64,000 nt of DNA from contig NZ_CP011479.1 in the NCBI RefSeq assembly GCF_001011155.1, positions 3,056,501 to 3,120,500 of the forward strand, in the 5' to 3' direction. A program made the position numbers and the translations under genes. Position 1 is the stretch's first letter; each line of letters opens with the position of its first letter. The DNA comes from Hoeflea sp. IMCC20628. Lineage in GTDB: Bacteria > Pseudomonadota > Alphaproteobacteria > Rhizobiales > Rhizobiaceae. The notes beneath the pieces are model-generated. The model worked only from the letters and a program-made list of their open reading frames with translations, had not been told where the DNA came from and did not search any database. Of this stretch, positions 11,282 through 29,193 are shown one piece after another.

Positions 11282-12064
11282 CTATTTACCCGTCCAGACC
11301 GGATCGCGCTTTTCGGCGAAGGCCCTGGACCCTTCGAGATTGTCCTCGGAACCATAGAGCGTATCAACGGTTTGCAATTGCCGCTTGGTCACCTTGTTCA
11401 TGGTGTCCTGGAATTTCTCGCCTTCGGCCTCGCGTACCACTTCCTTGATCGCGGCAAAGACCAGCGGCGGGCCGGACGCGAGAAGCTCGGCCATTTCCCA
11501 AGCCTTGGCCATCAGCTCATCGGCCTTATGGATCTGGTTGACGAAGCCCCAGCGGTGGGCCTCTTGCGCATCAATCCAGCGGCCGGTGAACAGCATTTCC
11601 ATGGCGATGTGATAGGGAATGCGCTTGGGCAGCTTGATCGAGGCCGCATCGGCGACGGTGCCGGAACGAATTTCGGGCAGGGCGAAGCTAGCATGTTCAA
11701 CAGCAAGAATAATGTCGCAGGACAGCGCGATTTCCAGCCCGCCGCCACAGCAAATGCCGTTGACGGCACAAATCACCGGCTTGTTGAGATGCGGCAATTC
11801 CTGAAGCCCGCCAAAGCCGCCAACGCCGTAATCGCCATCGACCGCGTCGCCATCGGCTGCAGCCTTCAGGTCCCAGCCGGGGCAGAAGAATTTCTCGCCG
11901 GCACCGGTGAGGATGGCGACGCGCAGATCCGGGTTGTCACGGAAATCGCGAAACACTTCGCCCATGATACGGCTGGTTTCCAAATCGACCGCATTGGCCT
12001 TTGGCCGGTCAAGCGTGACTTCGAGTACGTGGCCAACAATACGGGTCTTGATTGGTCCGGTCAT
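11282..12064 (-). CDS. caiD: Carnitinyl-CoA dehydratase / crotonobetainyl-CoA hydratase (CaiD-like)
   Basis: The 260-residue product belongs to the enoyl-CoA hydratase (crotonase) family. Motifs RPKANAVD, KFFCPGWDLKAAADGDA, NGICCGGGLEIALSCD (oxyanion hole) and FALPEIRSGTVADAA resemble CaiD more than general enoyl-CoA hydratases. CaiD adds water to crotonobetainyl-CoA to give L-carnitinyl-CoA. The start overlaps the stop of the CoA-ligase gene by ATGA; it is the last gene of the leftward operon. The acyl-CoA dehydrogenase, CoA ligase and carnitine dehydrogenase upstream support a gamma-butyrobetaine/crotonobetaine to carnitine route. Confidence 0.82.
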   Translation of the reverse strand: MTGPIKTRIVGHVLEVTLDRPKANAVDLETSRIMGEVFRDFRDNPDLRVAILTGAGEKFFCPGWDLKAAADGDAVDGDYGVGGFGGLQELPHLNKPVICAVNGICCGGGLEIALSCDIILAVEHASFALPEIRSGTVADAASIKLPKRIPYHIAMEMLFTGRWIDAQEAHRWGFVNQIHKADELMAKAWEMAELLASGPPLVFAAIKEVVREAEGEKFQDTMNKVTKRQLQTVDTLYGSEDNLEGSRAFAEKRDPVWTGK

Positions 12065-14133
12065 GGTCGGGATCCTTCCTCATTCAGGCAAATCAGCGCG
12101 TCGACGGCTATGGCGTCAGACGCGCGGGCGATCAATGGATTGACTTCCAGCTCAATGAGCCGGTCGGCGTGAGCTTCAGCATAGTTGCCTACAGCCATCA
12201 CCGCATCGACCAGCGACTCGATGTCTGCGGCCGGTTTGCCGCGATAGCCTTCAAGCAGCCGGCCGACCTTCAGGCTTCTGAATGCGGCCTCGATTTCGGT
12301 CCGGCTTGCGGGCAAGAGCAGGCTGGCCGTATCCCCCAGCAGCTCGGTCAAAACACCCCCGGCACCAAGGGTCAACAAAAACATGCCTGTCGGATCCCGG
12401 GTGATGCCGATCAACAGTTCGGCAAGCTGACCTGCCACCATTTCCTCGACCAGAAAGCCATGAGCTGTGCCGCTCATGCGCTCAGCCGCAGCAACGAGAT
12501 CCTGCTGATTTGGAATATTGAGCACCACCAGCCCGGCTTCGCTCTTGTGCGCCGCGCCCGTTCCCTTCAGCACGACAGGAAATTCCAGCGCGGCGGAAGC
12601 TTCGGCCAACTCATCGATTGTCGCGGCGGTTCGGCTCTGCGGACACTTTAAGCCAAATCCGGACAGAGCGTCTTTCGAGGCAGCCTCGCTGAGGGTGACC
12701 GGCGTTTGGGCATATGTTGATGCCAGTTGCACACCCGGAGCTTCACCACCTCTGGTCCGGCCTGCGGCAATGGCTGAGTTGATGGCGGCGATTCCCTCGC
12801 TCATGCCATGGAGGACGGCGACTCCTCCCTCCATGAAACTGCGGGTGAAGCTGTCCGACATATTTTCAGGCAGGCTGGCCAGTACCGCAACGCGCGCGCC
12901 GGTGTCGGCCTTTGCTGCAACAATGGCGTCGACTGCGCATTGATAACCCGACGGGTCGCAGCGGTCGGCACGCGGAAGGTCCAGAATGAAGACAATGAGG
13001 TCAAATGTTTCGGCCATGACCATCGAGAACATCCGGGTCATGCGAGGCGTGTCACCCCAGATGAAGGTGTGATAATCGAGCGGATTGGCGATGGTGACGA
13101 TGGGTCCAAGCTCGGCTTTCAACGCGGCGCGTTGAGCTGGCGCGAAATCGACAAACTCCAGATTGGTCCCGCTGCTCAGATCCGCCATCAGGCTTGCTTC
13201 GCCACCGGAGCAACTGACCGAACAGATTGCGGACCCCGGCAACGGCCCGACCATATGCAGCAGCTTGAGCGTTTCGAGGAAGACGGCGATGGTCTCGACC
13301 TCGATGATCCCGAGGCGTTTCAGCAATGCCGAGCCAGCTGCAGCATTGCCGGCCAGCGAAGCGGTGTGGGTCATTGTTGCGGCCCGTGCCTTGTCGGACC
13401 GGCCGATCTTGATGGCGACCACCGGTTTACCCTTAGTGCGCGCCTTGGCAGCGAAGGCTTCCAGTGCACGGATATCACCAAAGCCTTCGAGATAAAGCCC
13501 AATGGCGGTAACCCGATCATCATCAAGCAGCGCTTCGGCTATGGCGCTGGCGCCGACCTGCGCCTGATTGCCGGCGGCAATCACATAGGCAATCGGCAGA
13601 CCGCGGGCCTGCATGGTCATGTTGATGGCGATGTTGGAGGACTGGGCGACGATGGCAATGCCGCTTTCCACGTCAATGCCGCCATGCTGGTCCGGCCATA
13701 GCGTGACATTGTCTAGATAGTTGAGAAGCCCGTAGCAATTGGGCCCGAGGATCGGCATATCACCTGCGGCCTCGACAAGCCGCGCCTGCAAATCGGCGCC
13801 GCCAGCCGTTTCACTTTCACTTTCGAGAAAGCCTGAGGCAAAGCAGGTCGCGCCGCCGGCCCCCATGGCGCTGAGCTTTTCGACCACCTCGATTGTCGCG
13901 TCCCGGTTGACGCCGATGAAGCTCGCATCAGGCACGCCTGGAAGATCGTCAATGGAGGCGATGCAGGGCACGCCGAGGATGTCGCTACGTTTCGGATTGA
14001 CCGGCCAGATGTCGCCATCAAAGCCGGACTTCTTCAGCTGAGCGACCACATTGACGGCCCAGCCGCCACCAAACAGCGCGATGGATCTAGGCCTTAGAAG
14101 GCGGGAAAGGTCAGGTTTCATGGACGGGATCAC
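12061..14133 (-). CDS. Acyl-CoA synthetase (ADP/NDP-forming), fused alpha-beta type
   Basis: This is a 690-residue enzyme with a CoA-binding Rossmann domain at the N-terminus (RPRSIALFGGGWAVNVV), succinyl-CoA-synthetase-like domains in the middle (GPNCYGLLNYLDN, SCSGGEASLMADL) and a C-terminal ATP-grasp domain (FPVVLKGTGAAHKSEAGLV, LLTLGAGGVLTELLGD). Members activate carboxylates with ATP and CoA. In this operon the likely substrate is gamma-butyrobetaine, crotonobetaine or carnitine, replacing the AMP-forming CaiC ligase. The GTG at 14133 overlaps the preceding stop (GTGA); an ATG at 14121 is the alternative and would give 686 residues. Substrate is inferred from context only. Confidence 0.85.
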   Translation of the reverse strand: MIPSMKPDLSRLLRPRSIALFGGGWAVNVVAQLKKSGFDGDIWPVNPKRSDILGVPCIASIDDLPGVPDASFIGVNRDATIEVVEKLSAMGAGGATCFASGFLESESETAGGADLQARLVEAAGDMPILGPNCYGLLNYLDNVTLWPDQHGGIDVESGIAIVAQSSNIAINMTMQARGLPIAYVIAAGNQAQVGASAIAEALLDDDRVTAIGLYLEGFGDIRALEAFAAKARTKGKPVVAIKIGRSDKARAATMTHTASLAGNAAAGSALLKRLGIIEVETIAVFLETLKLLHMVGPLPGSAICSVSCSGGEASLMADLSSGTNLEFVDFAPAQRAALKAELGPIVTIANPLDYHTFIWGDTPRMTRMFSMVMAETFDLIVFILDLPRADRCDPSGYQCAVDAIVAAKADTGARVAVLASLPENMSDSFTRSFMEGGVAVLHGMSEGIAAINSAIAAGRTRGGEAPGVQLASTYAQTPVTLSEAASKDALSGFGLKCPQSRTAATIDELAEASAALEFPVVLKGTGAAHKSEAGLVVLNIPNQQDLVAAAERMSGTAHGFLVEEMVAGQLAELLIGITRDPTGMFLLTLGAGGVLTELLGDTASLLLPASRTEIEAAFRSLKVGRLLEGYRGKPAADIESLVDAVMAVGNYAEAHADRLIELEVNPLIARASDAIAVDALICLNEEGSRP

Positions 14134-15293
14134 GCGCCAAACGGACGTAGCAGCGAGCGCGAGATGATATGGCGCTGGATCTCGGATGTGCCTTCCCAGA
14201 TGCGTTCGATGCGGGCGTCGCGCCAGATGCGCTCGAGCGGCAGCTCATCCATCAGACCCATGCCGCCATGGATCTGGATCGCCTCGTCGGCGACCATGGC
14301 CAGCATCTCGGTGGCCTTGAGCTTGGCCATGGCCATGTCGGCGTCGGACACCGTGCCCTGGTCGAATTTCCAGCCAGCTTCCATGATCATCAGCTCGGCG
14401 GCCTTCATTTCCATCGCCATGTCGGCGAGCTTGAAGGAGACGCCCTGGAACTTGCCAATCGGCTGGCCGAACTGTTCACGGGTGGCGGCCCATTCGACCG
14501 AGTGCTGGAAGGCGCGGTCGGCACGGCCGAGACAGGTGGCGCCGACTTGCAGCCTTGTGGCGCCGAGCCAGGTGTTGGCAACTTCAAAGCCCTTGTGAAC
14601 TTCGCCCAGCACATTTTCGGCGGGGATGCGGCAATTGTCGAATTCGAGGATGGCGTTGGTATAGCCGCGATGGGAGACATTGCGGTAGCCGTCGCGCACC
14701 GCATAGCCGGGCGTGTCCTTGTCGACGAAGAACGCGGTGATCAGTTTTTTCGGTCCGCGCGGTGTATCCTCTTCACCGGTCGCCATGAAGCAGATCGAAA
14801 AATCGGCAATATCGGCGTGGGAAATGAAATGCTTGGTGCCGTTGAGCACCCAGTCGGATCCATCCAGCTTGGCGCTGGCCTTCATGCCGCGCAGGTCGGA
14901 GCCCGCGCCGGGCTCGGTCATGGCCAGGCAATCCCATTTTTCGCCAGCGACGCAAGGTTCGAGATAGCGGGCGCGCTGATCAGGCGTTCCGGCGCACAGG
15001 ATATTTGAGGGGCGCGCGATACAGGTCCAGTGCAACGCATAATTGGCGCGGCCAAGTTCCTTCTCGTACAAGAGCCATGTCGGTGTATCGAGACCGGCGC
15101 CGCCGAACTCTTCGGGAATGTTGGCAGCGTAGAGCCCCGCGGCAATCGCCTTCTGCTGGATCTCGCGCACCAGATCCATATCGAGATGGCCGGTGCGCTC
15201 GACCTGGGCTTCGTGCGGATAGAGTTCATTCTCGACGAAAGCCCGTGTGGTCTCGACGATCATCTCCTGTTCCTGGGTCAGTCCGAAATCCAT
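14130..15293 (-). CDS. Acyl-CoA dehydrogenase (gamma-butyrobetainyl-CoA or crotonobetainyl-CoA type)
   Basis: This FAD-dependent dehydrogenase has 387 residues from ATG 15293, preceded by AAAGGTG; a longer frame lacks a site. Family motifs are CLAMTEPGAGSDLRGM (FAD/substrate loop), SATR-region equivalents around LGATRLQVGATCLG, QIHGGMGLMDELPLERIWRD and ERIWEGTSEIQR, whose Glu is the expected catalytic base. In this operon it probably oxidises gamma-butyrobetainyl-CoA to crotonobetainyl-CoA, as in aerobic carnitine biosynthesis from gamma-butyrobetaine in Agrobacterium-type strains. It lies four bases after the SDR gene. Confidence 0.85.
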   Translation of the reverse strand: MDFGLTQEQEMIVETTRAFVENELYPHEAQVERTGHLDMDLVREIQQKAIAAGLYAANIPEEFGGAGLDTPTWLLYEKELGRANYALHWTCIARPSNILCAGTPDQRARYLEPCVAGEKWDCLAMTEPGAGSDLRGMKASAKLDGSDWVLNGTKHFISHADIADFSICFMATGEEDTPRGPKKLITAFFVDKDTPGYAVRDGYRNVSHRGYTNAILEFDNCRIPAENVLGEVHKGFEVANTWLGATRLQVGATCLGRADRAFQHSVEWAATREQFGQPIGKFQGVSFKLADMAMEMKAAELMIMEAGWKFDQGTVSDADMAMAKLKATEMLAMVADEAIQIHGGMGLMDELPLERIWRDARIERIWEGTSEIQRHIISRSLLRPFGA

Positions 15294-15297
15294 TTTT

Positions 15298-16059
15298 TTA
15301 CACCTTTGGGTCGGGGTTTTCAGTATGGCCATCAACGGCAATCACCTGGCCAGAGACCAGCCGGGCACCGTCGGACGCCAGAAAAACGGCCATGTTGGCA
15401 ATGTCTTCAGCCGAGACGAAGGAGCGCATTGAAACGCCCGCCTCGTAACCTGCCCGGATGGCTTCGGGCGTGGTTCCCTTGGCCTTGGCCTCGCGCGCGA
15501 TGACGCCGTCGATCCGCGGACCTTCAACACAGCCCGGCGCGATCGCATTGGCACGGATGCCGTAGGGGCCGAGCTCCATGGCGAGTGTCTTCATCAGTCC
15601 GATCTCCGCCCATTTTGCAGAGGCATAAGGTGAGCGGTTGGGAAAGCCGTTGATGCCCGCATTCGAGGAGGTGATCAGGATAACGCCCGATTTCTGTGCC
15701 TTCATCATCGGAGCCGCATATTTGGCGGCCAGAAATGCACCTTCCAGATTGACGGCGATGCAGCGGCGAAAATCCTCAATCTGCACGTCCTCGACCAGAG
15801 CCGTGGGCCCGGCAATGCCTGCATTGGCGCAGACCACGTCAACGCTACCCCACTCGCTGGCGATACGACCGAAGACCGCCTGCACATGCTCAGGAGCGCT
15901 GGCGTCACCGGTCATCTTCAGCCAACTGCCGGGGCACTGAGCCAACGCGGCCTCGTCCATATCGGTGACAAAGACCCGGGCACCATCGGCTGCAAAGGCC
16001 TGAGCCATGGCCTTGCCAATGCCCGATCCGCCGCCGGTGATGAGAACCCGCTTGCTCAT
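15298..16059 (-). CDS. Short-chain dehydrogenase/reductase (SDR)
   Basis: This classical SDR of 253 residues has the NAD(P)-binding GGGSGIG near residue 8, NAG near 87, the catalytic Ser in ITSSNAG, and Tyr-x-x-x-Lys in YASAK. I chose ATG 16059 because it starts directly at the Rossmann strand; ATG 16071 immediately follows the lcdH stop and would add four residues. Its substrate is unknown. In this operon it could oxidise a hydroxyacyl intermediate such as carnitinyl-CoA or act on a betaine-derived alcohol or aldehyde; that is guesswork. Confidence 0.85.
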   Translation of the reverse strand: MSKRVLITGGGSGIGKAMAQAFAADGARVFVTDMDEAALAQCPGSWLKMTGDASAPEHVQAVFGRIASEWGSVDVVCANAGIAGPTALVEDVQIEDFRRCIAVNLEGAFLAAKYAAPMMKAQKSGVILITSSNAGINGFPNRSPYASAKWAEIGLMKTLAMELGPYGIRANAIAPGCVEGPRIDGVIAREAKAKGTTPEAIRAGYEAGVSMRSFVSAEDIANMAVFLASDGARLVSGQVIAVDGHTENPDPKV

Positions 16060-16071
16060 ATCGTGTCCCAT

Positions 16072-17505
16072 TCAGTTGCGCATGCTGGCGGGCTTGGGCA
16101 GTTTCGACTGGGCTTCGCCGAGTGCCGTGATCTTAGCCAGTACCGCACCTTCCGGTTCGCAGGAGCGACGGGTTTCGAGCGAGACATGGAGCAGCAGCTG
16201 ATTGCAGGTCGAAAGCAGTTCCCCGTTAGCGGTCCGGATCATCTCGTGGTAGAGCCGCAGCTTCTTGCCGCGGGCTTCGAGCACCTGGGTGCGGACGTGG
16301 ATCACATCGCCAAGATGGGTCTCGTTGAGGTAGCCGATTTCATTGGAGACGGTGAAATAGGACAGACCGCCATCGATATAAGCCTGATCTGCGCCAACCA
16401 TCTGCATCACCACATCGCCGGCATCAGAAAACACCTGGCCGTAGCGGCTTTCGTTCATGTGGCCATTGTAATCCATCCAGTCGACCGGGATGACCCGCTC
16501 AAGCGTCGTCAACGGGTGATCAATGTCGGTCGGCAGCGGCGGCTTGTTGCGCGCATCCTGAATATTGAGCAGCTCTCCCGAGCCCCAATTGCGCCCCTTC
16601 AAAGCCCGCATTATGGCAACCAGATTGTCGTCGCGGATGCGCTCGAGTTCGCGGATCGAATGCATGCCTGACTGGGCGTCCGACTGATCGGCGATCATGT
16701 TGGTCAGTTCTTCAGTGAGTTCCGGCACATCCATCAGCTTGGTCCAGGGCCAGGAGAGGCACGGGCCGAACTGGGCTATGAAGTGGCGCATGCCCGCCTC
16801 ACCGCCGGCGATGCGGTAGGTCTCGAACAGGCCCATCTGAGCCCAGCGCATACCGAAGCCATAGCGGATGACGTCGTCGATTTCCTCGGTGGTGGCAACG
16901 CCATCCTTGATCAGCCACAGCGCCTCGCGCCAGACGGCTTCGAGAAAGCGGTCGGCAATGTGGGCGTCAATTTCCTTGCGCACGATCAGCGGCTTCATGC
17001 CGATGTCTTCGAGCACGACTTTTGCGCGCTCGACAGTTTCCTGAACCCCGACAAGCTCGATCACCGGCAGCAGATAGACCGGGTTGAACGGATGGGCGAC
17101 GAAGATCTGCTCCGGCCTTGCCGCACCCTGTTGCAGTTCAGATGGCTTGAAGCCCGACGTGGACGAACCGATCAGCGCGTCCTGGCCACAATGGGTCTGG
17201 ATTTCAGCAAAAATGGTGTGCTTGATGTCGAGGCGCTCGGGCGCGCTTTCCTGGATCCAGTCGGCGTCTGCAACCGCTTCTGCGATAGAGGCGGCAAAGC
17301 TGAGCTTGCCCGCCTTCGGCACGCTGACATCGGAAAGAGCCGGCAGTGACCGTCTTGCATTGGCAAGCACTTCACCAACCTTGCGTTCGGCTTCCGGATC
17401 GGGATCGGAGACGACAACGTCCCAACCGTTGAGAAGGAACCGGGCAGCCCAGCCGCCGCCAATGACGCCGCCGCCAATGATGGCAGCTTTCAATTTTTTG
17501 CTCAT
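16072..17505 (-). CDS. lcdH: L-carnitine 3-dehydrogenase fused to a hotdog-fold (betainyl-CoA) thioesterase
   Basis: This is a two-domain protein of 477 residues. Residues 1 to about 320 are a 3-hydroxyacyl-CoA-dehydrogenase-like NAD enzyme: GGGVIGGGW at 11-19, SSTSGF at 114-119 and HPFNP at 138-142. This is L-carnitine dehydrogenase (EC 1.1.1.108), which makes 3-dehydrocarnitine. Residues from about 335 form a 4-HBT/hotdog domain with DYNGHMNESRY at 345-355, matching the thioesterase thought to hydrolyse betainyl-CoA to glycine betaine. The fusion is known in rhizobia and Xanthomonas. The start overlaps the HD-domain gene stop by ATGA. Confidence 0.93.
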   Translation of the reverse strand: MSKKLKAAIIGGGVIGGGWAARFLLNGWDVVVSDPDPEAERKVGEVLANARRSLPALSDVSVPKAGKLSFAASIAEAVADADWIQESAPERLDIKHTIFAEIQTHCGQDALIGSSTSGFKPSELQQGAARPEQIFVAHPFNPVYLLPVIELVGVQETVERAKVVLEDIGMKPLIVRKEIDAHIADRFLEAVWREALWLIKDGVATTEEIDDVIRYGFGMRWAQMGLFETYRIAGGEAGMRHFIAQFGPCLSWPWTKLMDVPELTEELTNMIADQSDAQSGMHSIRELERIRDDNLVAIMRALKGRNWGSGELLNIQDARNKPPLPTDIDHPLTTLERVIPVDWMDYNGHMNESRYGQVFSDAGDVVMQMVGADQAYIDGGLSYFTVSNEIGYLNETHLGDVIHVRTQVLEARGKKLRLYHEMIRTANGELLSTCNQLLLHVSLETRRSCEPEGAVLAKITALGEAQSKLPKPASMRN

Positions 17506-18122
17506 GCGTTTCGCTCTCTGGCAATGGTTATGTCTGTCAGGGCAACCCGTTCGCCGGCACGGATCACTAAGGGATCGTAGGCTTTGCGGGCGAAGACCTG
17601 TTCGACCATGTCGCGGAAGAATTCGATGCCTTCATGCGGGTAATCGGGGTCAAAACTGTTCTGATCCCAGCGTTCGCAGAATGCGGCGCAATCATCGTAA
17701 TAGGCATGCCCCTTGTAGGCATCGCGCGAATGCGGATTGCCGCCAACATGTTGGGCATAATAGAGTTTTTGAAAATCGCCGTGCTTCTCCACCACCCAGG
17801 CGCATTGCTCGCGCACAAAGGGCTTGAGGATGGCGGCGGCATATTCATCGTGATTGTAGGGCGCGTAGATATCGCCGATATCATGCAGAAGCGCGGACAC
17901 AACCCAATCCACATCGGCGCCATCGCGCCAGGCACGAGTGGCGGCCTGCAACAAATGGCCGAGCCGAGTGACCTGGTAGCCCGACAGGCTCTTGTCGAGA
18001 TCGACCATGGCTGCCAGAAGCCGCTCGGCGGTTTTGGCGGCATAGTCGATTTCGTGCCCGGTGAGGAATTCATAATCCTCCCGGTCGCCATCCTTCATTG
18101 CTGTGAACTTGACCTTTTCCAT
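17502..18122 (-). CDS. HD-domain protein resembling PhnZ/TmpB mixed-valent di-iron oxygenases
   Basis: The product has 206 residues from ATG 18122, with GGGGAGGG five bases upstream; an earlier in-frame start at 18146 would overlap the preceding gene and lacks a site. An HD fold is clear, with HD at 80-81 in ALLHDIGD. The possible metal ligands His56, His80, Asp81, His91, His114 and Asp153 have the same order as the di-iron site I recall for PhnZ, and the spacing His56-to-His80 (24) is the same. PhnZ and TmpB cleave the C-P bond of hydroxyphosphonates, TmpB acting on a trimethylammonium substrate related to carnitine. Here the gene sits between the dehydrocarnitine-cleavage enzyme and carnitine dehydrogenase, overlapping the latter. 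It could instead be a plain HD phosphohydrolase. Confidence 0.8.
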   Translation of the reverse strand: MEKVKFTAMKDGDREDYEFLTGHEIDYAAKTAERLLAAMVDLDKSLSGYQVTRLGHLLQAATRAWRDGADVDWVVSALLHDIGDIYAPYNHDEYAAAILKPFVREQCAWVVEKHGDFQKLYYAQHVGGNPHSRDAYKGHAYYDDCAAFCERWDQNSFDPDYPHEGIEFFRDMVEQVFARKAYDPLVIRAGERVALTDITIARERNA

Positions 18123-18142: not shown

Positions 18143-19060
18143 TCAATTGGCGGTCGGCGCGCGCTTGGTCAGGTTGAGACGCTCACGCACTTCCTGCGGA
18201 CCGATGACCCGCGCGCCCATATTTTCGACGATTGACGCGGCGCGCTCGACCAGCTGTGCGTTGGTGGCGAGTTGGCCCTTACCGAGCCAGAGATTGTCTT
18301 CAAGACCAACGCGAACATTACCGCCGGCCAGTACTGAGGCTGCGACATAGGCCATCTGGTTGCGGCCAAGCGCGAAGGCCGACCAGTTCCAGTCGTCAGG
18401 TACGTTGTTGACCATCGCCATGAAGGTGTTGAGGTCATCGGGTGCGCCCCACGGCACGCCCATGCAAAGCTGCACCAGCGCATCCGGCGCAAGCACGCCT
18501 TCCTTGACCAGTTCCTTGGCGAACCAGAGATGGCCGGTGTCGAATGCCTCGACTTCCGGTTTGACACCGAGTTCGGTCATCATGGCGCCCATGGCTCGCA
18601 GCATGCCGGGTGTGTTGGTCATGACGTAATCAGCCTCGGCGAAATTCATCGTGCCGCAATCAAGCGTGCACATCTCAGGCAAGCATTCCAGAATGTGTTT
18701 CATGCGCTCGGATGCACCGGCCATGTCGGTGCCGACCGGATTGAGCGGCAATGGCCTTTCGGTCGGTCCGAACACCATGTCGCCGCCCATTCCGGCGGTG
18801 AGGTTCAAGACGACATCGACTTCCGCTTCGCGGATGCGTTCGGTGACTTCGCGGTAGAGCGCCACATCGCGGCGCGGGCTGCCGGTCTCGGGATCGCGCA
18901 CATGGCAATGCACAATCGCGGCTCCGGCCTTGGCCGCGTCAATGGCGGACTCGGCAATCTGCTTGGGCGAACGCGGCACGTGCGGGCTTCGATCCTGAGT
19001 GGCGCCGGATCCGGTGACGGCGCAGGTGATGAAAACCTCGCGATTCATGGTCAATGGCAT
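18143..19060 (-). CDS. Beta-keto acid cleavage enzyme (BKACE), probably 3-dehydrocarnitine:acetyl-CoA trimethylamine transferase
   Basis: This 305-residue TIM-barrel enzyme starts at ATG 19060, preceded by GAGGAGTG. The family zinc motif is HCHVRDPETG with His51 and His53, and FITCAVTGSGAT begins the barrel. BKACE enzymes condense a beta-keto acid with acetyl-CoA, giving acetoacetate and a new CoA thioester. With carnitine dehydrogenase downstream, the likely reaction is 3-dehydrocarnitine plus acetyl-CoA to betainyl-CoA plus acetoacetate; the thioesterase domain of LcdH would then release glycine betaine. It is the first gene of the operon, divergent from the CdhR-like regulator. Confidence 0.88.
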   Translation of the reverse strand: MPLTMNREVFITCAVTGSGATQDRSPHVPRSPKQIAESAIDAAKAGAAIVHCHVRDPETGSPRRDVALYREVTERIREAEVDVVLNLTAGMGGDMVFGPTERPLPLNPVGTDMAGASERMKHILECLPEMCTLDCGTMNFAEADYVMTNTPGMLRAMGAMMTELGVKPEVEAFDTGHLWFAKELVKEGVLAPDALVQLCMGVPWGAPDDLNTFMAMVNNVPDDWNWSAFALGRNQMAYVAASVLAGGNVRVGLEDNLWLGKGQLATNAQLVERAASIVENMGARVIGPQEVRERLNLTKRAPTAN

Positions 19061-19137: not shown

Positions 19138-20127
19138 ATGACACAAAGCGAACTCACGCAGGAATATTCAGACTCCAAGCCACCCATGAGCGTCAATTTT
19201 CTGGTTGTTCCGGGGTGTTCATTGCTGACACTGGCAAGCACTGTCGAGCCCCTGAGGGCCGCCAACAGGCAGGCTGGCAGTACGGTTTTCGACTGGCGAT
19301 TTGTTTCCGTGGACGGGACCTCACCGATCACATCCTCCGGTATCGCCTGGCCCGTCTCAGGCAAGCATGACCCTTCATCCCGGTGTGATGTGCTGGCGAT
19401 CATCGCAGGTTTTGGCGCACCGCAGATGACCGACCGCAAGTTGATTGCGCATATCTACCGGGCAGCAAGAAATGCACGTCTCGTCATCGGCATTGAATCG
19501 GGAGCCTGGCTGCTGGCGCGCGCGGGACTGCTGGATGAACACCGTGCAGCAACCCATTGGGAAGATTTCGAGGAATTCGCCGCAGCATTCCCGAATGTTG
19601 ACCTTCGTCCGGATCGCTACGTTATCGACCGGCGTTTCGTGACAACATCAGGCGCATCACCGACGTTAGACATGATGGTGGATCTGGTCGGGCGTGAACT
19701 CGGCCATCCGGCAGCGCTGGAAGTGGCAACCAGCTTCGTTCATGACTATTTGCGCGCGGCAGGTGACGCGCAGGTCAACGCGACCCTGGGTGATGCGCGG
19801 CATGATCCGCGTCTGGTGCGTTCGATCCGGATCATGGAAACCCATGTCGACGCACCAGTCAGCATCGCCGCGATCGCCAAGCGGGTGTCGATGTCGGCGC
19901 GCGGGCTGGAACAATTGTTTTCCCGGCAGATGGGCCAGACACCGGGTGCCTATTTCCTGTCGCTGAGGCTGGCGGCGGCGCGGCGGCTGGTCAGTGACAC
20001 ACGGTTGAGCATGACCGATATCGCATCGCGGACGGGATTCTCCTCGGAATCTGCATTTTCACGCGCGTTCAGCCGGCAGTTCGACCTGTCGCCGAGTGCA
20101 AGCCGGAAACGGCCGGCCTCCGCTTAG
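19138..20127 (+). CDS. cdhR: AraC-family activator with DJ-1/GATase-like domain (CdhR/GbdR type)
   Basis: This 329-residue protein combines an N-terminal DJ-1/PfpI-like sensor domain (about 17-190; NFLVVPGCSLLTLAS, IGIESGAWLLARAGLL) with a C-terminal AraC double helix-turn-helix (about 220-320; ISIAAIAKRVSMSARGLEQLF-like core and SMTDIASRTGFSSESAFSRAF). Regulators of this architecture control carnitine (CdhR) and glycine betaine (GbdR) catabolism in pseudomonads. It is transcribed away from the carnitine operon, which it probably activates. The exact ligand is inferred. Confidence 0.82.
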   Translation: MTQSELTQEYSDSKPPMSVNFLVVPGCSLLTLASTVEPLRAANRQAGSTVFDWRFVSVDGTSPITSSGIAWPVSGKHDPSSRCDVLAIIAGFGAPQMTDRKLIAHIYRAARNARLVIGIESGAWLLARAGLLDEHRAATHWEDFEEFAAAFPNVDLRPDRYVIDRRFVTTSGASPTLDMMVDLVGRELGHPAALEVATSFVHDYLRAAGDAQVNATLGDARHDPRLVRSIRIMETHVDAPVSIAAIAKRVSMSARGLEQLFSRQMGQTPGAYFLSLRLAAARRLVSDTRLSMTDIASRTGFSSESAFSRAFSRQFDLSPSASRKRPASA

Positions 20128-20153: not shown

Positions 20154-20936
20154 TCAACTGCCCTTGACCGGCACCTTGGCTTCGAGCCAGCGGAAGGCCA
20201 GCACCAGAACACCGGTCAGGATCATGTAGATCAGCGCCAGCAGCAACAGCGGCTCATAGGTCAGATAGGTGTCCTGGCGCACGCGCGAGATGATGGCATA
20301 GACATCGACCACAGTGATGGTGGCGACCAGCGGCGTGGCCTTGAGCTGCAGCACGGTTTCACCGGCCAGCGTCGGCAAAGCCCGGTGAATGGCGCGCGGC
20401 AGCCAGATGCGCCGGAACGCCGTGAATGGCGACATGCCGTAAGCCCGTGCGGCCTCGAGTTCGCCCTTGGGAACCCCCGCGAAAGCCCCGCGCATTACCT
20501 CGCCCTCGTATCCGGCAAACGACATCGTCAGCGCCAACACACCATAGGGCCAGGCCGAGCGCAGATAGGGCCAGGCCCAGGACTGGCGGATTTCCGGCCA
20601 GTAGGCAAACAGCGAACCTAGGCCGTAATAGAGAAGCCACAATTGCAAGAGCAAGGGCGTGCCGCGGATCACGGTGCAGAAGGCACGGGCAGGGCCGGAG
20701 AGCCAGACAGGGCCTGCCGCCTGGGCGAGCCCGAGCGGCACAGCCAGCAAAAAGCCCAGCACACTGGTCAGAAACAACAGCCAGAGCGTGGTGCCGACGC
20801 CGGTGAGCAGCTTGCCGGAATAGCGCGGCAGCCAGTCCCAGCGCATGTTGATCGCAGCAAACAGGATGATCCCAATGGCGATCGCCAGCAGCACCAGGCG
20901 GTGCGGTTCATTCCAGCGTCGTGTCTCGGATTGCAT
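20154..20936 (-). CDS. Polar amino-acid ABC transporter permease (HisM/ArtM type)
   Basis: This 260-residue inner-membrane permease has the conserved EAA loop MRGAFAGVPKGELEAARAYGMSPFTAFRRI-type segment near residues 150-180 and the RGTPLLLQLWLLYYG motif typical of His/Arg/Glu uptake permeases. Its ATG overlaps the stop of the partner permease by one base (TGATG). It is the last gene of the transporter operon and converges on cdhR with a 26-base gap. The divergent arginine-type genes suggest arginine or a methylated arginine as substrate. Confidence 0.88.
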   Translation of the reverse strand: MQSETRRWNEPHRLVLLAIAIGIILFAAINMRWDWLPRYSGKLLTGVGTTLWLLFLTSVLGFLLAVPLGLAQAAGPVWLSGPARAFCTVIRGTPLLLQLWLLYYGLGSLFAYWPEIRQSWAWPYLRSAWPYGVLALTMSFAGYEGEVMRGAFAGVPKGELEAARAYGMSPFTAFRRIWLPRAIHRALPTLAGETVLQLKATPLVATITVVDVYAIISRVRQDTYLTYEPLLLLALIYMILTGVLVLAFRWLEAKVPVKGS

Positions 20937-21667
20937 CAGCGCACCGCCGGTATGCCGCGGCGGGCATGGCGTTCAATCCGGCGGATGGCGACATTGGAAA
21001 GCAGTGTCACCATCAGATAGAGCAAGCCGGCAGCAAAGAAGAATGTGAAATAGTGCTTGGTCGTGCCACCGGCCTGACGCGTGACCAGCGTCAGCTCCGC
21101 AACACCGACGACAGCCAGCAGAGCAGTATCCTTGGTAGCGATCAACCAGAGATTGGAAAGACCGGGCACGGCGTGCGGCAACATGCCGGGAAGCGTGATG
21201 CGCCGCAGAACCTGCAGCGACGACATGCCATAGGCACGCGCCGCCTCGATCTGTCCGTGCGGCACCGCCTTGAAAGCGCCGCGCAGAACTTCAGTCTGAT
21301 AGGCGCCCTGAACCACGCCGATGACGAAGATACCGGCAGCCAGACCGCTGATGTCCATGCGCTCGGCGCCGATCAGCACCAGGGACTGGTTAAGGGCATC
21401 GGTTCCGGCATAATAGAGCAGCAGAATGAGAACCAGTTCCGGCACAGCGCGGACCAGCGTGGTGTAGACATCCAGCACATCGCGCAGGATGGGGCCGCCA
21501 TAGAGCTTGCCGGTGGCGCCGCCGATGCCGATCAGGAACCCCAGAATATAGCCGCCTACGGCGACCTGAAGCGAGATCGCCAGACCTTTGAGCAGCACGC
21601 CGCCCCAGCCCGGCGGGTTCAGCGCCAGAAGCTCCCAGGCGGAAAGGCCTGTTATCCAGTCAAACAT
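20936..21667 (-). CDS. Polar amino-acid ABC transporter permease (HisQ/ArtQ type)
   Basis: This is the second permease, 243 residues from ATG 21667 with TGAGG nine bases upstream; a GTG at 21682 is possible but falls in a hairpin region. RAVPELVLILLLYYAG and the EAA loop (VLRGAFKAVPHGQIEAARAYG) are typical of HisQ proteins. It forms the heterodimeric membrane channel with the downstream permease. The transporter lies between carnitine genes and arginine-type genes; HisMQ permeases normally carry amino acids, whereas carnitine uptake normally uses OpuA-type systems. Confidence 0.87.
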   Translation of the reverse strand: MFDWITGLSAWELLALNPPGWGGVLLKGLAISLQVAVGGYILGFLIGIGGATGKLYGGPILRDVLDVYTTLVRAVPELVLILLLYYAGTDALNQSLVLIGAERMDISGLAAGIFVIGVVQGAYQTEVLRGAFKAVPHGQIEAARAYGMSSLQVLRRITLPGMLPHAVPGLSNLWLIATKDTALLAVVGVAELTLVTRQAGGTTKHYFTFFFAAGLLYLMVTLLSNVAIRRIERHARRGIPAVR

Positions 21668-21682
21668 TTGAAACGGCCTCAC

Positions 21683-21711
21683 TGGCCCGGCGAGTTAAAC
21701 CCGCCGGGCCA
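21683..21711 (-). terminator. Intercistronic hairpin after the amino-acid binding protein gene
   Basis: A perfect 10-base inverted repeat (TGGCCCGGCG and complement, loop of 9) lies between the binding-protein stop at 21742 and the first permease start at 21667. The minus strand shows no T run after it. It occupies the same place as hairpins in four other transporter operons of this window and probably protects the upstream mRNA or reduces read-through. Confidence 0.6.
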
Positions 21712-21741
21712 GCAGCAGCGCAGTGCGCCTGTTCAGGCATA

Positions 21742-22512
21742 TTACTTGCCGTAGATGTCGAAGTCGAAATAGGCCTTCGAGAATTCCGCATAGGTTCCGT
21801 TATCAAGAATGGCCGCGATCGCCGTGTTGAACTTTTCGCGCAGCTCATCGTCGCCCTGGCGCAGGCCAATGCCAACGCCGGCACCGAGAATGGCCGGATC
21901 GTCTTCAACAGCGCCGACGATTTCGCAGCAGTCGTCGGATTTGACGAAGGCATCAAGCGCCAGCGAATCCGCCATGACGGCGTCAACGCGACCGGCAGCT
22001 AGATCCTGGTTGGCTTCGTCCTGGGTCTGGTATTCCTTGATCTCGGCAGCCACATCACCAAAATGGGTGGTCATGTAGTCCTGGTGGATGGTGGACACCT
22101 GAACACCGAGGATCTTGCCCTTGAGGCCAGCGGCGTCCGGGGTGATGCCCGAGCCCTTCGAGGTCGCGATCACGGCCGGAGTGTTGTAATATTTGTCGGA
22201 GAAAGCGATCGACTTCATGCGCTCTTCGGTGATCGACATCGAGCCGACAATGGCGTCGATCTTGTTGGACATCAGCGCAGGAATGATGCCATCCCAGGCC
22301 ACCGGGGTGACCACGCAATCAAGCTTGGCCTCGGCGCAGACGGCGTTCATGAATTCAATTTCCCAACCGGCCCAGTTGCCGGAAGCATCCGGCTCGGTGA
22401 ATGGCGGGTAAGGTTCGGCAGCAACGCCAACGCGCAGCGCTTCAGCGGATGCTGCACTGGCCGCAAATGTCAGGCCGAGAGCGGCGATGGCTGTGATGAT
22501 CTTGGTCTTCAT
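21742..22512 (-). CDS. Periplasmic amino-acid-binding protein (ABC family 3)
   Basis: This 256-residue protein has a Sec signal peptide (MKTKIITAIAALGLTFAA, cleavage after ASA near residue 23) and the family 3 fold: LRVGVAAEPYPPFTEPD, GWEIEFMNAVC, WDGIIPALMSNKIDAIVGSM and ITEERMKSIAFSDKYY. It delivers an amino acid to the HisQM-type permeases. A pair of adjacent cysteines (DDCCEIV) near residue 190 is unusual. The ATPase gene is upstream and a hairpin follows the gene. The ligand is probably a basic amino acid given the neighbouring arginine-type enzymes, but this is inference. Confidence 0.9.
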   Translation of the reverse strand: MKTKIITAIAALGLTFAASAASAEALRVGVAAEPYPPFTEPDASGNWAGWEIEFMNAVCAEAKLDCVVTPVAWDGIIPALMSNKIDAIVGSMSITEERMKSIAFSDKYYNTPAVIATSKGSGITPDAAGLKGKILGVQVSTIHQDYMTTHFGDVAAEIKEYQTQDEANQDLAAGRVDAVMADSLALDAFVKSDDCCEIVGAVEDDPAILGAGVGIGLRQGDDELREKFNTAIAAILDNGTYAEFSKAYFDFDIYGK

Positions 22513-22573
22513 GGTTTCTCCCCTTTTATGGAATTCGGGTTATCATATTCGGGCTTTGCCCATTCGCCCCGGA

Positions 22574-23380
22574 CTATTGAACAGTCGCGAGGAATTTTTG
22601 CAGGCGCTCCGATTCCGGCGCGCTGTAGACGATATCCGGTGAACCTTCTTCTTCGATCACACCGTCGGCCAGGAACACCACGTGGTTGGCGACCTCCCGG
22701 GCGAAATTCATCTCGTGAGTGACCAGCAGCATGGTGCGGCCTTCGCGCGCCAGATCGGCGATAACGGCCAGCACTTCGCCGACCAGTTCCGGATCAAGTG
22801 CAGAGGTCGGTTCGTCAAACAGCATGACTTCCGGTTCGACCGCAAGGGCCCTGGCGATGGCAGCGCGCTGTTGCTGACCGCCAGACAGGAATGCCGGGTA
22901 GACATCGCGCTTGTCGGACAGGCCGACGCGCTCCAGCAGAACCTCGGCGCGGGCGATTGCCTCATCGCGCGGCACGCCCATGACCTGCACAGGCGCTTCG
23001 ATAATATTGCCCAGAACCGTCATGTGCTGCCACAGATTGAAGCTCTGAAACACCATGGCAAGGCGGGTGCGGATGCGGCGCAGCTGGCCGGCATTGGCGG
23101 GTTTAAGGCCGCCGCGCCCATCGGGCTGCATCTCGATGGTTTCGCCCTTGATGCTTATGGCGCCCTGGGTCGGCAGTTCCAGCATGTTGATGCAGCGAAG
23201 CAGGGTCGACTTGCCGGACCCGGATCCACCGATGATGGCCACCACATCGCCGGTTCGGGCCGTCAACGACACGCCCTTGAGAACTTCAAGCTCGCCAAAT
23301 GTCTTGTGCAGATCAGCGACCTGCACAGCTGGCGGTGAATTGTCGGTGCCGGTCCCTGCAGCGATTTGTGGACTGCTCAT
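22574..23380 (-). CDS. Polar amino-acid ABC transporter ATP-binding protein (HisP/GlnQ type)
   Basis: This 268-residue ATPase has Walker A GGSGSGKST near residue 50, Q-loop VFQSFNLWQHMTVLGN, signature LSGGQQQRAAIARAL, Walker B VMLFDEPTSALDPELV and the H-loop VTHEMNFA. The 20-residue N-terminal extension is polar and probably disordered. It is the first gene of the leftward transporter operon, starting 86 bases from the divergent DDAH-like gene. It energises the HisQM-type permeases. Confidence 0.93.
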   Translation of the reverse strand: MSSPQIAAGTGTDNSPPAVQVADLHKTFGELEVLKGVSLTARTGDVVAIIGGSGSGKSTLLRCINMLELPTQGAISIKGETIEMQPDGRGGLKPANAGQLRRIRTRLAMVFQSFNLWQHMTVLGNIIEAPVQVMGVPRDEAIARAEVLLERVGLSDKRDVYPAFLSGGQQQRAAIARALAVEPEVMLFDEPTSALDPELVGEVLAVIADLAREGRTMLLVTHEMNFAREVANHVVFLADGVIEEEGSPDIVYSAPESERLQKFLATVQ

Positions 23381-24363: not shown

Positions 24364-24989
24364 CGCGGCGGACGTTTCATCATCAACCCGAAGCGGTGCG
24401 GCAAAACGATCTGATTGCCGCAACGCTCGACAGCATCGCCGAATTGGGGCTGGCGGGCGCAACCGTGCGGGAAGTTGCCGCGCGCGCCGGCGTCACACCG
24501 GGCTTGATCCGTCGCTATTTCGTCAACAAGGAGCGGCTGGTCGCGGCGGCCTACCGGACCTTCATATCGGATCTGACAGCGGCGGCTGCAACCGGCTGCG
24601 GCGACGGGTCGGCACATTCACGGCTCGCCGGGCTGATCCGCGCCAGCGTCACCGCGCCTGTGGCCGACGGTCGAACACTGTCGATCTGGGCTGCCTTCAT
24701 CGGCACGGTGAATTCTGATCCGGTGATGGCCGAAGCGCACCGCGAAGGCTACCGGAGGTTCCGTGATCTCATCGAACAACTGGTTGGCGAAGTCATGGCC
24801 GAGCGCGGATCGCTGGCCTCCGCAGAAGATATCCGCAGACAGGGGATCGTGCTCAACGCGTTGCTCGACGGTCTCTGGATTGAAATATCCATGGGCGGCG
24901 ATGACTTCGCGCGCCTCGACGTGGTCCGGATCGCGCTCGATTCAGTGGCAATACTGCTGGGGATCGACCCGGCAGAATTCAGGGAATAA
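24360..24989 (+). CDS. TetR-family transcriptional regulator (BetI-like)
   Basis: This is a 209-residue regulator from ATG 24360, which overlaps the preceding stop and has GGCGGGA directly upstream. Residues about 14-60 form the TetR helix-turn-helix (TVREVAARAGVTPGLIRRYF), and the C-terminal part resembles BetI-type ligand-binding domains (SIWAAFIGTVNSDPVM). It lies between the DDAH-like gene and the aminotransferase gene, only four bases from the latter, so it probably represses this operon and the divergent transporter. Confidence 0.85.
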   Translation: MTRRTFHHQPEAVRQNDLIAATLDSIAELGLAGATVREVAARAGVTPGLIRRYFVNKERLVAAAYRTFISDLTAAAATGCGDGSAHSRLAGLIRASVTAPVADGRTLSIWAAFIGTVNSDPVMAEAHREGYRRFRDLIEQLVGEVMAERGSLASAEDIRRQGIVLNALLDGLWIEISMGGDDFARLDVVRIALDSVAILLGIDPAEFRE

Positions 24990-24993
24990 TAAA

Positions 24994-26157
24994 ATGCAAT
25001 ATGCCGCAATCACAGATCGTCTGGCTCACACCGGCGGCGCCAAATGGGCCATTCACCAGCGCTGCCGGGAGATGAAGGCCGAAGGCGCCGACATCATCGA
25101 GCTGACCATCGGCGAGCCCGATTTGCCGCCGGATCCGCGCCTCTTCGAAGTCTGTCATCAGTCGATGCTTGCCGGGCGCACCGGCTATTCGAGCGGCCGC
25201 GGCGAGCCGAAACTGCTCGAGGCGATTGCGGCCCGCTATGCAAAGCGACGTGCTGACGTGGACGTCAACAATGTGCTGTGTTTTCCCGGCACCCAGACAG
25301 CGCTGTTTGCGACCATGATGGCCCTGACCGGTCCGGGTGACGGTGTGCTGGTCGGCGATCCGTTCTACGCCACCTATGAAGGCGTCATCGTTGCCAGCGG
25401 CGCGCATCGGCAATCGGTGCCGCTGAGACCGGAGAACGGGTTCCGGATGACCGCTGAAGATCTTGAAGCCTCGATTACGCCCCACTCCCGCGTGCTGCTG
25501 TTGAATTCGCCGCACAATCCGACCGGCGCCGTGCTTGAGGCTGGCGAATTGGCCAAGATTGGCGCAGTCTGTCAAAAGCATGACATCTGGATAATTGCTG
25601 ACGAGGTGTATGAAGAGTTGGTATTTGACGGCGTTTTCGCCTCGCCATTCGATAATCCCGATCTTGCTGACCTTGTCATCGCAGTCTCGTCGATCTCCAA
25701 GTCGCATGCCGCACCGGGCTTTCGAAGCGGATGGGCTGTCGGCCCGCACGAGTTTTGCGAAAAACTGTTGCCGCTTTCGGAAACCATGCTGTTTGGCAAT
25801 CAGCCCTTCATCGCCGACATGACAGCGTTTGCGCTGACCTCCGATATGCAGACATCAGCGCTGATGCGGGACTCCTACAAACGGCGCTCTGGCGTTTTTG
25901 CCGACCGGCTTGAAAAGGTTGACGGCATTGTGCCGTTCCGCCCGCAGGCAGGCATGTTCATCGTGCTGGATGTGTCCGGCACCGGCCTTGATGGCGAAAC
26001 ATTTGCCTGGCGCCTGCTCGAGGCCGGCGTTGCGGTGATGCCGGGATCCTCCTTCGGCGACAGCGGCGGCAAGCTGGTACGGCTCAGCCTGACCGTGCCG
26101 GACGTGGCGGTTGAAGAAGCCTCCCGGCGCATCGCGCGCTTTGTGGGGACAATCTGA
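24994..26157 (+). CDS. Fold-type I aminotransferase, AruH-like (arginine:pyruvate transaminase candidate)
   Basis: This PLP-dependent enzyme has 387 residues from ATG 24994. Key motifs are IGEPDLPP, TGYSSGRGEPKLLEAIA, LNSPHNPTGA, IIADEVYEELVFDG and SISKSHAAPGFRSGW, whose Lys binds PLP. Order and wording resemble arginine:pyruvate transaminase AruH of Pseudomonas, which makes 2-ketoarginine. The stop overlaps the start of the TPP-enzyme gene by one base (TGATG), and that neighbour resembles AruI, the partner decarboxylase. Other aspartate-family aminotransferases share much of this pattern, so substrate is inferred from pairing. Confidence 0.8.
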   Translation: MQYAAITDRLAHTGGAKWAIHQRCREMKAEGADIIELTIGEPDLPPDPRLFEVCHQSMLAGRTGYSSGRGEPKLLEAIAARYAKRRADVDVNNVLCFPGTQTALFATMMALTGPGDGVLVGDPFYATYEGVIVASGAHRQSVPLRPENGFRMTAEDLEASITPHSRVLLLNSPHNPTGAVLEAGELAKIGAVCQKHDIWIIADEVYEELVFDGVFASPFDNPDLADLVIAVSSISKSHAAPGFRSGWAVGPHEFCEKLLPLSETMLFGNQPFIADMTAFALTSDMQTSALMRDSYKRRSGVFADRLEKVDGIVPFRPQAGMFIVLDVSGTGLDGETFAWRLLEAGVAVMPGSSFGDSGGKLVRLSLTVPDVAVEEASRRIARFVGTI

Positions 26158-27749: not shown

Positions 27750-27753
27750 GCTA

Positions 27754-27772
27754 AAGCGGGTACGGCCCGCTT
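27754..27772. terminator. Hairpin between convergent AruI-like and ArgE-like genes
   Basis: A seven-base inverted repeat AAGCGGG-TACGG-CCCGCTT fills the 22-base space between two convergent genes. It has no clear T run but is placed to end both transcripts. Confidence 0.5.
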
Positions 27773-28938: not shown

Positions 28939-29193
28939 TTTACCCAAACCAATGTTGTGATTTTCGAGTTACAGCCGATTTCCACATCTTTGTTCGCTCT
29001 GAGGAGCCTTGTCCATAGCCGGTTCTGCGGGAAATCTCCTGTCGAATGACGCGGCGTTTGAACACTTATCACTCAATTTCAAAAACCCCACTGGTCAACC
29101 ACGGGAAAATTGGTCAATAGTAAGGGCAACCGGCAATCGAAAGATCAGACCGGCAACAAAAAATAACGGGAAAACATTCCCGAGGGGTACAGT
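28939..29193. promoter_or_regulatory. Divergent intergenic region (argE-like / dppD) with direct repeat
   Basis: This 255-base non-coding region separates the peptidase gene from the dipeptide-type transporter operon. The heptamer TGGTCAA occurs twice, at 29092-29098 and 29111-29117, 19 bases apart start to start (two helical turns). It is followed by an A-rich stretch and the ribosome site GAGGGG before ATG 29194. The repeat is a plausible regulator site of unknown owner. Confidence 0.4.

Follow-up and report, generated by a model that had tools for sequence, protein, structure and literature searches.

The HD-domain oxygenases named in 2020 comprise MIOX, PhnZ and TmpB (PMC8177086), to which PhnZ variants were added in 2023 (PMC10574752). 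PhnZ (4MLM/4N6W) and TmpB, the (R)-1-hydroxy-2-trimethylaminoethylphosphonate oxygenase (6NPA), display a YxxE loop for substrate binding and gating, HD phosphohydrolases are marked by an Arg that precedes their first His by three residues, and YqeK, a dinuclear phosphatase, contains two extra His between the HD pair and the last Asp (PMC8177086). The conversion of carnitine to glycine betaine is likewise a known pathway, with genes in the caiX-cdhCAB-hocS operon of Pseudomonas aeruginosa, which the accessible portion of that work names without any HD gene (PMC5806209). Here we describe a gene for a 206-residue HD protein located in a carnitine operon of Hoeflea sp. IMCC20628, within a stretch of 64,000 nucleotides (contig NZ_CP011479.1, positions 3,056,501 to 3,120,500) referred to as the window. 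The open-access literature searched contained no paper on an HD protein associated with carnitine genes.

The protein is predicted to belong to an undescribed subfamily of HD-domain oxygenases, in which the fold is known, the chemistry probable, and both the genomic context and the subfamily itself are new. The best overall explanation, to which we give even chances, is by analogy with the described enzymes a mixed-valent di-iron oxygenase that would cut the C-C bond next to the hydroxyl of a β-hydroxylated trimethylammonium compound, most simply carnitine to yield betaine.

Fold, metal ligands and family assignment

The open reading frame (ORF) runs on the minus strand from 18122 to 17502, the plus-strand frame holding a stop, and its ATG is preceded by a purine-rich Shine-Dalgarno-like stretch. 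The translation displays the metal ligands H56, H80-D81, H91, H114 and D153 at the very places named in a first-pass annotation of this DNA, which had given no strand; all six are invariant in a 21-sequence alignment, in 110/110 homologues and in 98/98 members of a more diverse set. The H56-H80 spacing of 24 residues equals that of H34-H58 in a PhnZ PDB chain, in line with what the annotation had proposed.

The AlphaFold2 (AF2) model of the protein (predicted local distance difference test, pLDDT, 95.3; predicted template modelling score, pTM, 0.91) was compared with the PDB by Foldseek, where all 10 matches at E ≤ 0.001 are PhnZ or TmpB, led by PhnZ at 2.6e-6 (template modelling scores 0.62/0.70) and TmpB at 1.7e-5; no phosphohydrolase fold or other hydrolase appears at that threshold, the next match having an E of 0.15, and MIOX is found at 0.67. 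A family profile searched against PDB sequences recovered PhnZ (3.3e-12), TmpB (1.2e-8) and then a Cas10 (0.022), the alignment to PhnZ and TmpB containing the first five ligands in its main stretch and the last Asp only in another, weak one, while the single-sequence search returned PhnZ (8.4e-6), TmpB (0.0035) and a Cas10 (0.012). The best NCBIfam models are Phn-HD (8.6e-8), PhnZ1 (2.9e-6) and TmpB (2.7e-5), all far under their cut-offs, including 31.9 bits against 214.6 for Phn-HD (TIGR03276) and 24.0 bits against 300 for TmpB (NF049941), followed by a nucleoside triphosphate (NTP) transferase model at 0.011. In Pfam, the generic HD model lies just over its gathering score (22.3 against 22 bits) and MIOX (PF05153) under it (21.8 against 25 bits; E 1.6e-4), covering residues 19-96 only. 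The profile searches and structure prediction that the annotation had proposed as a check thus return a PhnZ/TmpB-type fold with its ligands, and the predicted grouping with the PhnZ/TmpB-type HD oxygenases is supported, PhnZ and TmpB being the sole PDB proteins to match the modelled fold at E ≤ 0.001.

Compared to PhnZ, its best structural and profile match, the protein preserves the ligand order and the H-HD spacing of 24, but differs in the low TIGR03276 score, the absence of the YxxE loop and the absence of a PhyH-type partner in the window. Compared to TmpB, it shares the fold, the H..HD..H..H..D order and, beside its relatives, TmpA-like hydroxylases, but differs in score, in the missing YxxE loop and in displaying HDIGD and a shorter loop after the HD instead of HDIGH. 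At the position of the loop, the residues LSGY (46-49) stand opposite YLGE of the TmpB encoded by the same genome, Y49 being present in 67/67 members of the inner clade described below. D84 may directly replace the His that follows HDIG in TmpB, although the aligner places that His within an 11-residue insertion. R53 lies three residues before H56 and is kept in 95/98 members. MIOX belongs to the same superfamily and, by cleaving a C-C bond, comes nearest to the chemistry proposed here, but the structural match is poor and the Pfam match partial.

Elsewhere the genome encodes a TmpA of 594 bits (cut-off 400) and a TmpB of 337.6 bits (cut-off 300), with the two genes side by side near 1.417 Mb on the same contig, about 1.66 Mb from the window. 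This canonical pair rules out the window gene as the TmpB of this genome. Judged by its sequence, the HD protein is a member of neither PhnZ nor TmpB, because of the scores far under the cut-offs, the lack of a YxxE loop, the phosphohydrolase-type Arg and the true TmpA-TmpB pair elsewhere.

The HD gene in the carnitine operon

The HD gene overlaps by 4 nt the gene of a fused carnitine dehydrogenase and thioesterase, and its start lies 20 nt beyond the end of the gene for a β-keto acid cleavage enzyme (BKACE), at 18143; both the overlap and the position after a dehydrocarnitine-cleavage gene had been noted in the first-pass annotation and are seen. The genes concerned are as follows.

11282..12064, minus strand: crotonobetainyl-CoA hydratase-like enoyl-CoA hydratase, CaiD-like (NF002936)
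12061..14133, minus strand: nucleoside diphosphate (NDP)-forming acyl-CoA synthetase, candidate γ-butyrobetaine/carnitine-CoA ligase (Pfam Succ_CoA_lig, ATP-grasp_5)
14130..15293, minus strand: acyl-CoA dehydrogenase, candidate γ-butyrobetainyl-CoA dehydrogenase (Pfam Acyl-CoA_dh)
15298..16071, minus strand: short-chain dehydrogenase (SDR) of the same operon (Pfam adh_short_C2)
16072..17505, minus strand: fusion of L-carnitine 3-dehydrogenase and 4HBT thioesterase (CdhA-CdhB), 477 residues (NF005716, Pfam)
17502..18122, minus strand: HD-domain protein, 206 residues, predicted PhnZ/TmpB-like fold (translation; weak Pfam and NCBIfam matches; AF2, Foldseek)
18143..19060, minus strand: BKACE, CdhC-like, putatively cleaving dehydrocarnitine, next gene upstream of HD (Pfam BKACE, 2.7e-101)
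19138..20127, plus strand: divergent AraC/GATase-1 regulator, GbdR/CdhR-like (Pfam HTH_18, DJ-1_PfpI; NF052371)

The window joins a carnitine dehydrogenase, a BKACE, a thioesterase and a GbdR/CdhR-like regulator, the set that marks a bacterial carnitine-to-betaine operon, and resembles the Pseudomonas aeruginosa operon in these genes and in the divergent CdhR-type regulator (PMC5806209). Within this set, a specific equivalog cut-off is exceeded by the dehydrogenase alone (NF005716, 743 bits against 592; Pfam 3HCDH_N, 3HCDH and 4HBT_2 in the fusion). The start codon of BKACE was picked by eye and its substrate assigned from operon position, and the regulator reaches 215 bits with the GbdR model NF052371, under the cut-off of 480. 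Beyond the carnitine-to-betaine part, the pathway runs from γ-butyrobetaine through carnitine to glycine betaine, and the gene set of the operon would accomplish this whole conversion, the substrates of the CoA branch being presumptive. The acyl-CoA dehydrogenase scores 184 bits with the crotonobetainyl-CoA dehydrogenase model, which is not its best match (cut-off 540); the CaiD-like hydratase has NF002936 as its best family, at 308 bits and under the cut-off of 500.

Matches to the HD protein occur in 39/199 genomes of the family, 140/385 of the class (some weak; 109/385 at 150 bits or more) and 68/398 of the phylum, the last set overlapping the other two. BKACE, HD and CdhA genes lie on one strand in 73/80 close-relative loci, these being the best 80 of 366 relatives, a selection that favours close kin and the carnitine clade. 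Hoeflea and Mesorhizobium alike preserve the order, the genes overlapping or lying a short gap apart, and it was found in 15/30 loci examined in the family set. The dehydrogenase, ligase and hydratase of the CoA branch are kept in 72/80, 71/80 and 71/80 of the close loci, respectively, and all three accompany the HD gene in 71/80; the SDR has a same-strand match in 5/80.

In a tree of the HD proteins, in which the window and 10 of the 73 loci represent the carnitine operons and from which rows with fewer than 150 matched residues were excluded, these 11 carnitine-operon rows cluster in a single clade (100/99). Locus L231, from a 1.6 Mb genome, also groups an HD gene with a BKACE, a CdhA-like protein and, on the other strand, a thioesterase; its CdhA-like protein has the L-carnitine dehydrogenase model as best match (344 bits, cut-off 414), and the 12.6 kb of that locus showed no γ-butyrobetaine genes. 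In the tree, the L231 HD protein joins L197/L201 (99/88) at a distance from the carnitine clade, so that its linkage to carnitine genes probably arose separately. The survey of co-occurrence with carnitine genes suggested earlier yields both a linkage in 73/80 close loci and one in a distant lineage.

The remaining 7/80 close loci lie outside carnitine operons. The paralogue L074, outside such operons, is located near an old yellow enzyme (OYE)-type flavoenzyme, MttB, a GbcB-like reductase and a BetI-type regulator, and L110 has genes similar to these surroundings (by clustering and by eye), while L078 and L093 seemingly belong to a cobalamin cluster (by eye). The carnitine dehydrogenase is the commoner gene, over the cut-off in 89/199 family genomes. 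At least 50 of these 89 must be without the HD gene, because any HD match occurs in only 39/199, and the HD gene as a part of every carnitine operon is thereby ruled out.

Several minor observations concern the operon. A HisQMP-type ATP-binding cassette (ABC) transporter, encoded just past the divergent regulator (window 20154-23380, minus strand), is a candidate importer of carnitine or γ-butyrobetaine; it stays with the carnitine operon in Hoeflea loci L032-L039 and was not seen in Mesorhizobium loci. In the carnitine operons with the HD gene among L041-L111 (mostly Mesorhizobium), the carnitine dehydrogenase is without the thioesterase domain, and a thioesterase match occurs in only 8/73 HD-containing carnitine operons, those of Hoeflea and Oricola; L037 (Hoeflea) ends at a contig end.

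2-Oxoglutarate hydroxylases beside the relatives

The genomic contexts of 80 further homologues were surveyed for partners, comprising (i) 20 family hits and (ii) 60 contexts hand-picked from the class and phylum hits, by rank and spread and without knowledge of their partners. An upstream same-strand ORF was present in 52 contexts and absent from 28/80; 44 were scanned, after eight spurious-looking ORFs had been dropped by eye (L125, L126, L129, L131, L196, L208, L218 and L243). Among these 44 immediate upstream neighbours, PhyH accounts for 11 and TauD for 9, every other family occurring twice at most. When profiles of both hydroxylases were searched against the complete contexts, the sole additions were a divergent copy in L199 and, in L232, PhyH-like ORFs some 2 kb from the HD gene. 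HD homologues thus adjoin 2-oxoglutarate hydroxylases, as in the pairs PhnY/PhnZ and TmpA/TmpB (a partnership that MIOX does not share), in agreement with the kinship proposed in the annotation, although the window itself contains no such partner. At the level of class genomes, genes of the NF049936 family (TmpA and γ-butyrobetaine-hydroxylase-like, E ≤ 1e-40) are found in 52/109 HD-positive genomes (150 bits or more) against 13/276 HD-negative ones, counts that are not corrected for shared ancestry.

Eight HD-neighbouring TauD proteins were scanned, 7 of the 9 adjacent ones and the divergent L199 copy. TmpA is the best model for 7/8, at 318-361 bits and under the cut-off of 400; for L199, the γ-butyrobetaine dioxygenase model is slightly better than TmpA, and the trimethyllysine model is the worst of the three throughout (148-199 bits). 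TmpA contacts the phosphonate through N187, N287 and R288 (PMC9296572). All nine directly adjacent TmpA-like partners display Asp at 187, Pro, Thr or Ser at 287, and Arg or Lys at 288, and by these residues they seem to form a hydroxylase group of their own, acting on another substrate. Asp with Arg also occurs in unlinked copies, in L266, L267 and L274 (HD-holding genomes) and in L270 (genome G578).

All 9 TmpA-partnered and 11/12 PhyH-labelled HD proteins belong to an inner clade of 67 (99/95), in which the two partner types are interspersed, L202 (PhyH) and L206 (TmpA-like) being sisters (100/98). Such an exchange of one hydroxylase family for the other, also between sister HD proteins, suggests that the two generate one kind of substrate and feed one kind of step. 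The 31 members outside the inner clade display no common partner, though GbdR/CdhR-type regulators occur within contexts L213 and L214, as well as L258, L264 and L265, with 33-36% identity to the regulator of the window.

In 20 genomes where the HD gene either has a partner hydroxylase or coexists with a TmpA-family gene not linked to it, a CdhA-like protein (E ≤ 1e-40) is present in 15, 7 of them over the cut-off; genomes with hydroxylase partners are therefore not simply those without the standard route.

Further observations concern these homologues and hydroxylases. The Hoeflea genome encodes a second γ-butyrobetaine-dioxygenase-like protein (L247:6213-7412, minus strand; contig 1509236-1510306; 306 bits, under cut-off), which displays an Arg at the first iron-ligand His (HTD) of its relatives and may bind iron abnormally. 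In L191 and L193, from 1.4 Mb genomes, a TmpA-like/HD pair lies near a RidA-like gene, a major facilitator superfamily (MFS) transporter and an aminomethyltransferase/DmdA-like gene (by eye). A distant HD relative (L131:6269-8575, plus strand) is in one frame with an upstream hydantoinase B-like stretch, a fusion judged by eye, and L232 and L233 are two HD-family ORFs close together in one locus, apparently tandem copies.

Candidate functions of the HD protein

We infer the iron, the use of O2, the C-C cleavage and the substrate by analogy with the described HD oxygenases. In the proposed mechanism, Fe1 would bind the hydroxyl of a β-hydroxylated trimethylammonium substrate and Fe2 would bind O2; abstraction of the carbinol C-H would be followed by scission of the bond next to it, with a carboxylic acid as the product. 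In the relatives, the hydroxylated substrate would be supplied by the neighbouring TmpA-like or PhyH 2-oxoglutarate hydroxylase, whereas in this operon it would already be hydroxylated, most simply carnitine or its D-isomer. The carnitine carbinol would become the carboxylate of glycine betaine, the remainder leaving as a two-carbon acid, and betaine would be formed in this way without NAD+, acetyl-CoA or CoA. Carnitine as substrate would explain why the carnitine branch needs no hydroxylase and why hydroxylases stand beside the relatives. Oxygenase chemistry is considered likely and a trimethylammonium substrate somewhat favoured; the specific step from carnitine to glycine betaine is put forward tentatively. 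D-carnitine, a side product, or 3-hydroxy-trimethyllysine feeding γ-butyrobetaine into the operon would be other options.

Several findings weigh against this explanation. The chief sequence argument against an oxygenase is R53, to which the missing YxxE loop is added. A complete CdhA-BKACE-thioesterase route already handles carnitine, so that a second route looks redundant, and the HD gene is dispensed with by the 50 or more CdhA-positive family genomes counted above, the 73/80 figure coming from a sample tilted towards the carnitine clade. Many distant homologues have neighbours without a common theme or a visible quaternary-amine link; of the expectation that neighbours elsewhere would be related to quaternary amines, the conserved carnitine linkage stands, and its extension to these distant members does not. 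No hydroxylase lies directly upstream on the same strand in 60/80 context loci. The hydroxylases L199 and L248, near an HD gene and not directly adjacent, are without the Asp signature (L248 and L249 were included because of a nearby TmpA-family gene and lie outside the 80 contexts), and genome G228 (L268) contains an Asp-plus-Arg hydroxylase and no HD match. The substrate of the adjacent TmpA-like proteins, to judge by these residues, may be neither γ-butyrobetaine nor a phosphonate. In the window, TmpA-like and PhyH partner profiles match nothing at E ≤ 0.001, in agreement with the earlier remark that no TmpA is present there, the genome carrying its TmpA-TmpB pair elsewhere. A PhyH partner merely unlinked in this genome was likewise rejected, one partner query having matched nothing at E ≤ 1e-5 in a search without a positive control; two other PhyH-domain proteins exist in the genome.

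Four other explanations were considered. The HD protein could be an oxygenase whose hydroxylated substrate is an unrelated one, its gene having been captured by the carnitine operon with only the regulation in common. The 7/80 close loci outside carnitine operons would fit such a capture, as would the distant relatives located beside a purF-like gene, a cobalamin cluster, hydantoinase-like genes and others (mostly by eye), but the BKACE-HD-CdhA order maintained from Hoeflea to Mesorhizobium and the carnitine genes beside the HD gene of the distant L231 make it unlikely.

A slightly less probable alternative is a dinuclear HD phosphohydrolase, or another hydrolase with a fold like that of PhnZ, which would take a nucleotide or a phosphorylated metabolite as substrate and have a regulatory or housekeeping role in the operon. 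The HD motif and an Arg such as R53 are features of phosphohydrolases, and the two extra His of YqeK imply that the six-ligand order alone is no proof of an oxygenase (PMC8177086); the neighbours of many distant members, with no common theme, would also be compatible with such a role. The Foldseek search returned no hydrolase at E ≤ 0.001, however, and hydroxylases in 20/44 scanned upstream neighbours would be unexpected for a phosphohydrolase.

A third possibility, improbable in our estimate, is that 3-hydroxy-N6-trimethyllysine is cut at C2-C3 to γ-butyrobetaine, glyoxylate and ammonia, the CoA ligase, acyl-CoA dehydrogenase and hydratase of the operon then converting the γ-butyrobetaine to carnitine. 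Such chemistry would give exactly γ-butyrobetaine, the lower γ-butyrobetaine genes are in the operon in 71/80 loci, and the Asp at N187 together with the Arg/Lys at R288 (9/9) could hold an α-amino acid head group. However, no such hydroxylase is linked to the gene here; the two NF049936-family genes of the genome (E ≤ 1e-40) are the canonical TmpA and the copy with Arg at the iron-ligand His; the trimethyllysine model fits the neighbouring hydroxylases worst; and L231 and the operon share CdhA, BKACE and a thioesterase, γ-butyrobetaine genes being unseen in L231. Finally, TmpB-like cleavage of 1-hydroxy-2-trimethylaminoethylphosphonate to glycine betaine and phosphate, offered in the first-pass annotation as a side route for phosphonate analogues, could appeal to the fold kinship with TmpB and to the TmpA-like neighbours of relatives, but is highly improbable in view of the dedicated TmpA-TmpB pair that passes both NCBIfam cut-offs, the scores of 24/300 bits for TmpB and 32/214.6 for Phn-HD, the absent YxxE, and adjacent TmpA-like partners without both phosphonate-contact Asn (N187 and N287; 9/9), only the Arg/Lys at R288 being kept (PMC9296572).

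Returning to di-iron cleavage of a β-hydroxylated trimethylammonium compound, a broader and rather speculative proposal is that the HD protein represents a widespread, unrecognised di-iron branch devoted to C-C cleavage of β-hydroxylated trimethylammonium acids, which here would convert carnitine to betaine and a two-carbon acid with no reactant but O2, and elsewhere would work in tandem with either of two unrelated, interchangeable hydroxylases, TmpA-like or PhyH. If so, a further kind of HD oxygenase with a different pocket would widen the known chemistry of these enzymes and provide bacteria with a second, O2-dependent way to break down carnitine-like compounds. Action on carnitine or a precursor would open a new route that uses oxygen to reach glycine betaine, which is important in the sea as an osmolyte and nutrient (PMC12478193). 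Because the two hydroxylase families interchange, the substrate lends itself to a direct test through the product they share.

Elsewhere in the window, positions 24979-28947 comprise a likely arginine-catabolism block, including a pyridoxal phosphate (PLP) aminotransferase, a 5-guanidino-2-oxopentanoate decarboxylase (714 bits, cut-off 500) and an acetylornithine deacetylase.

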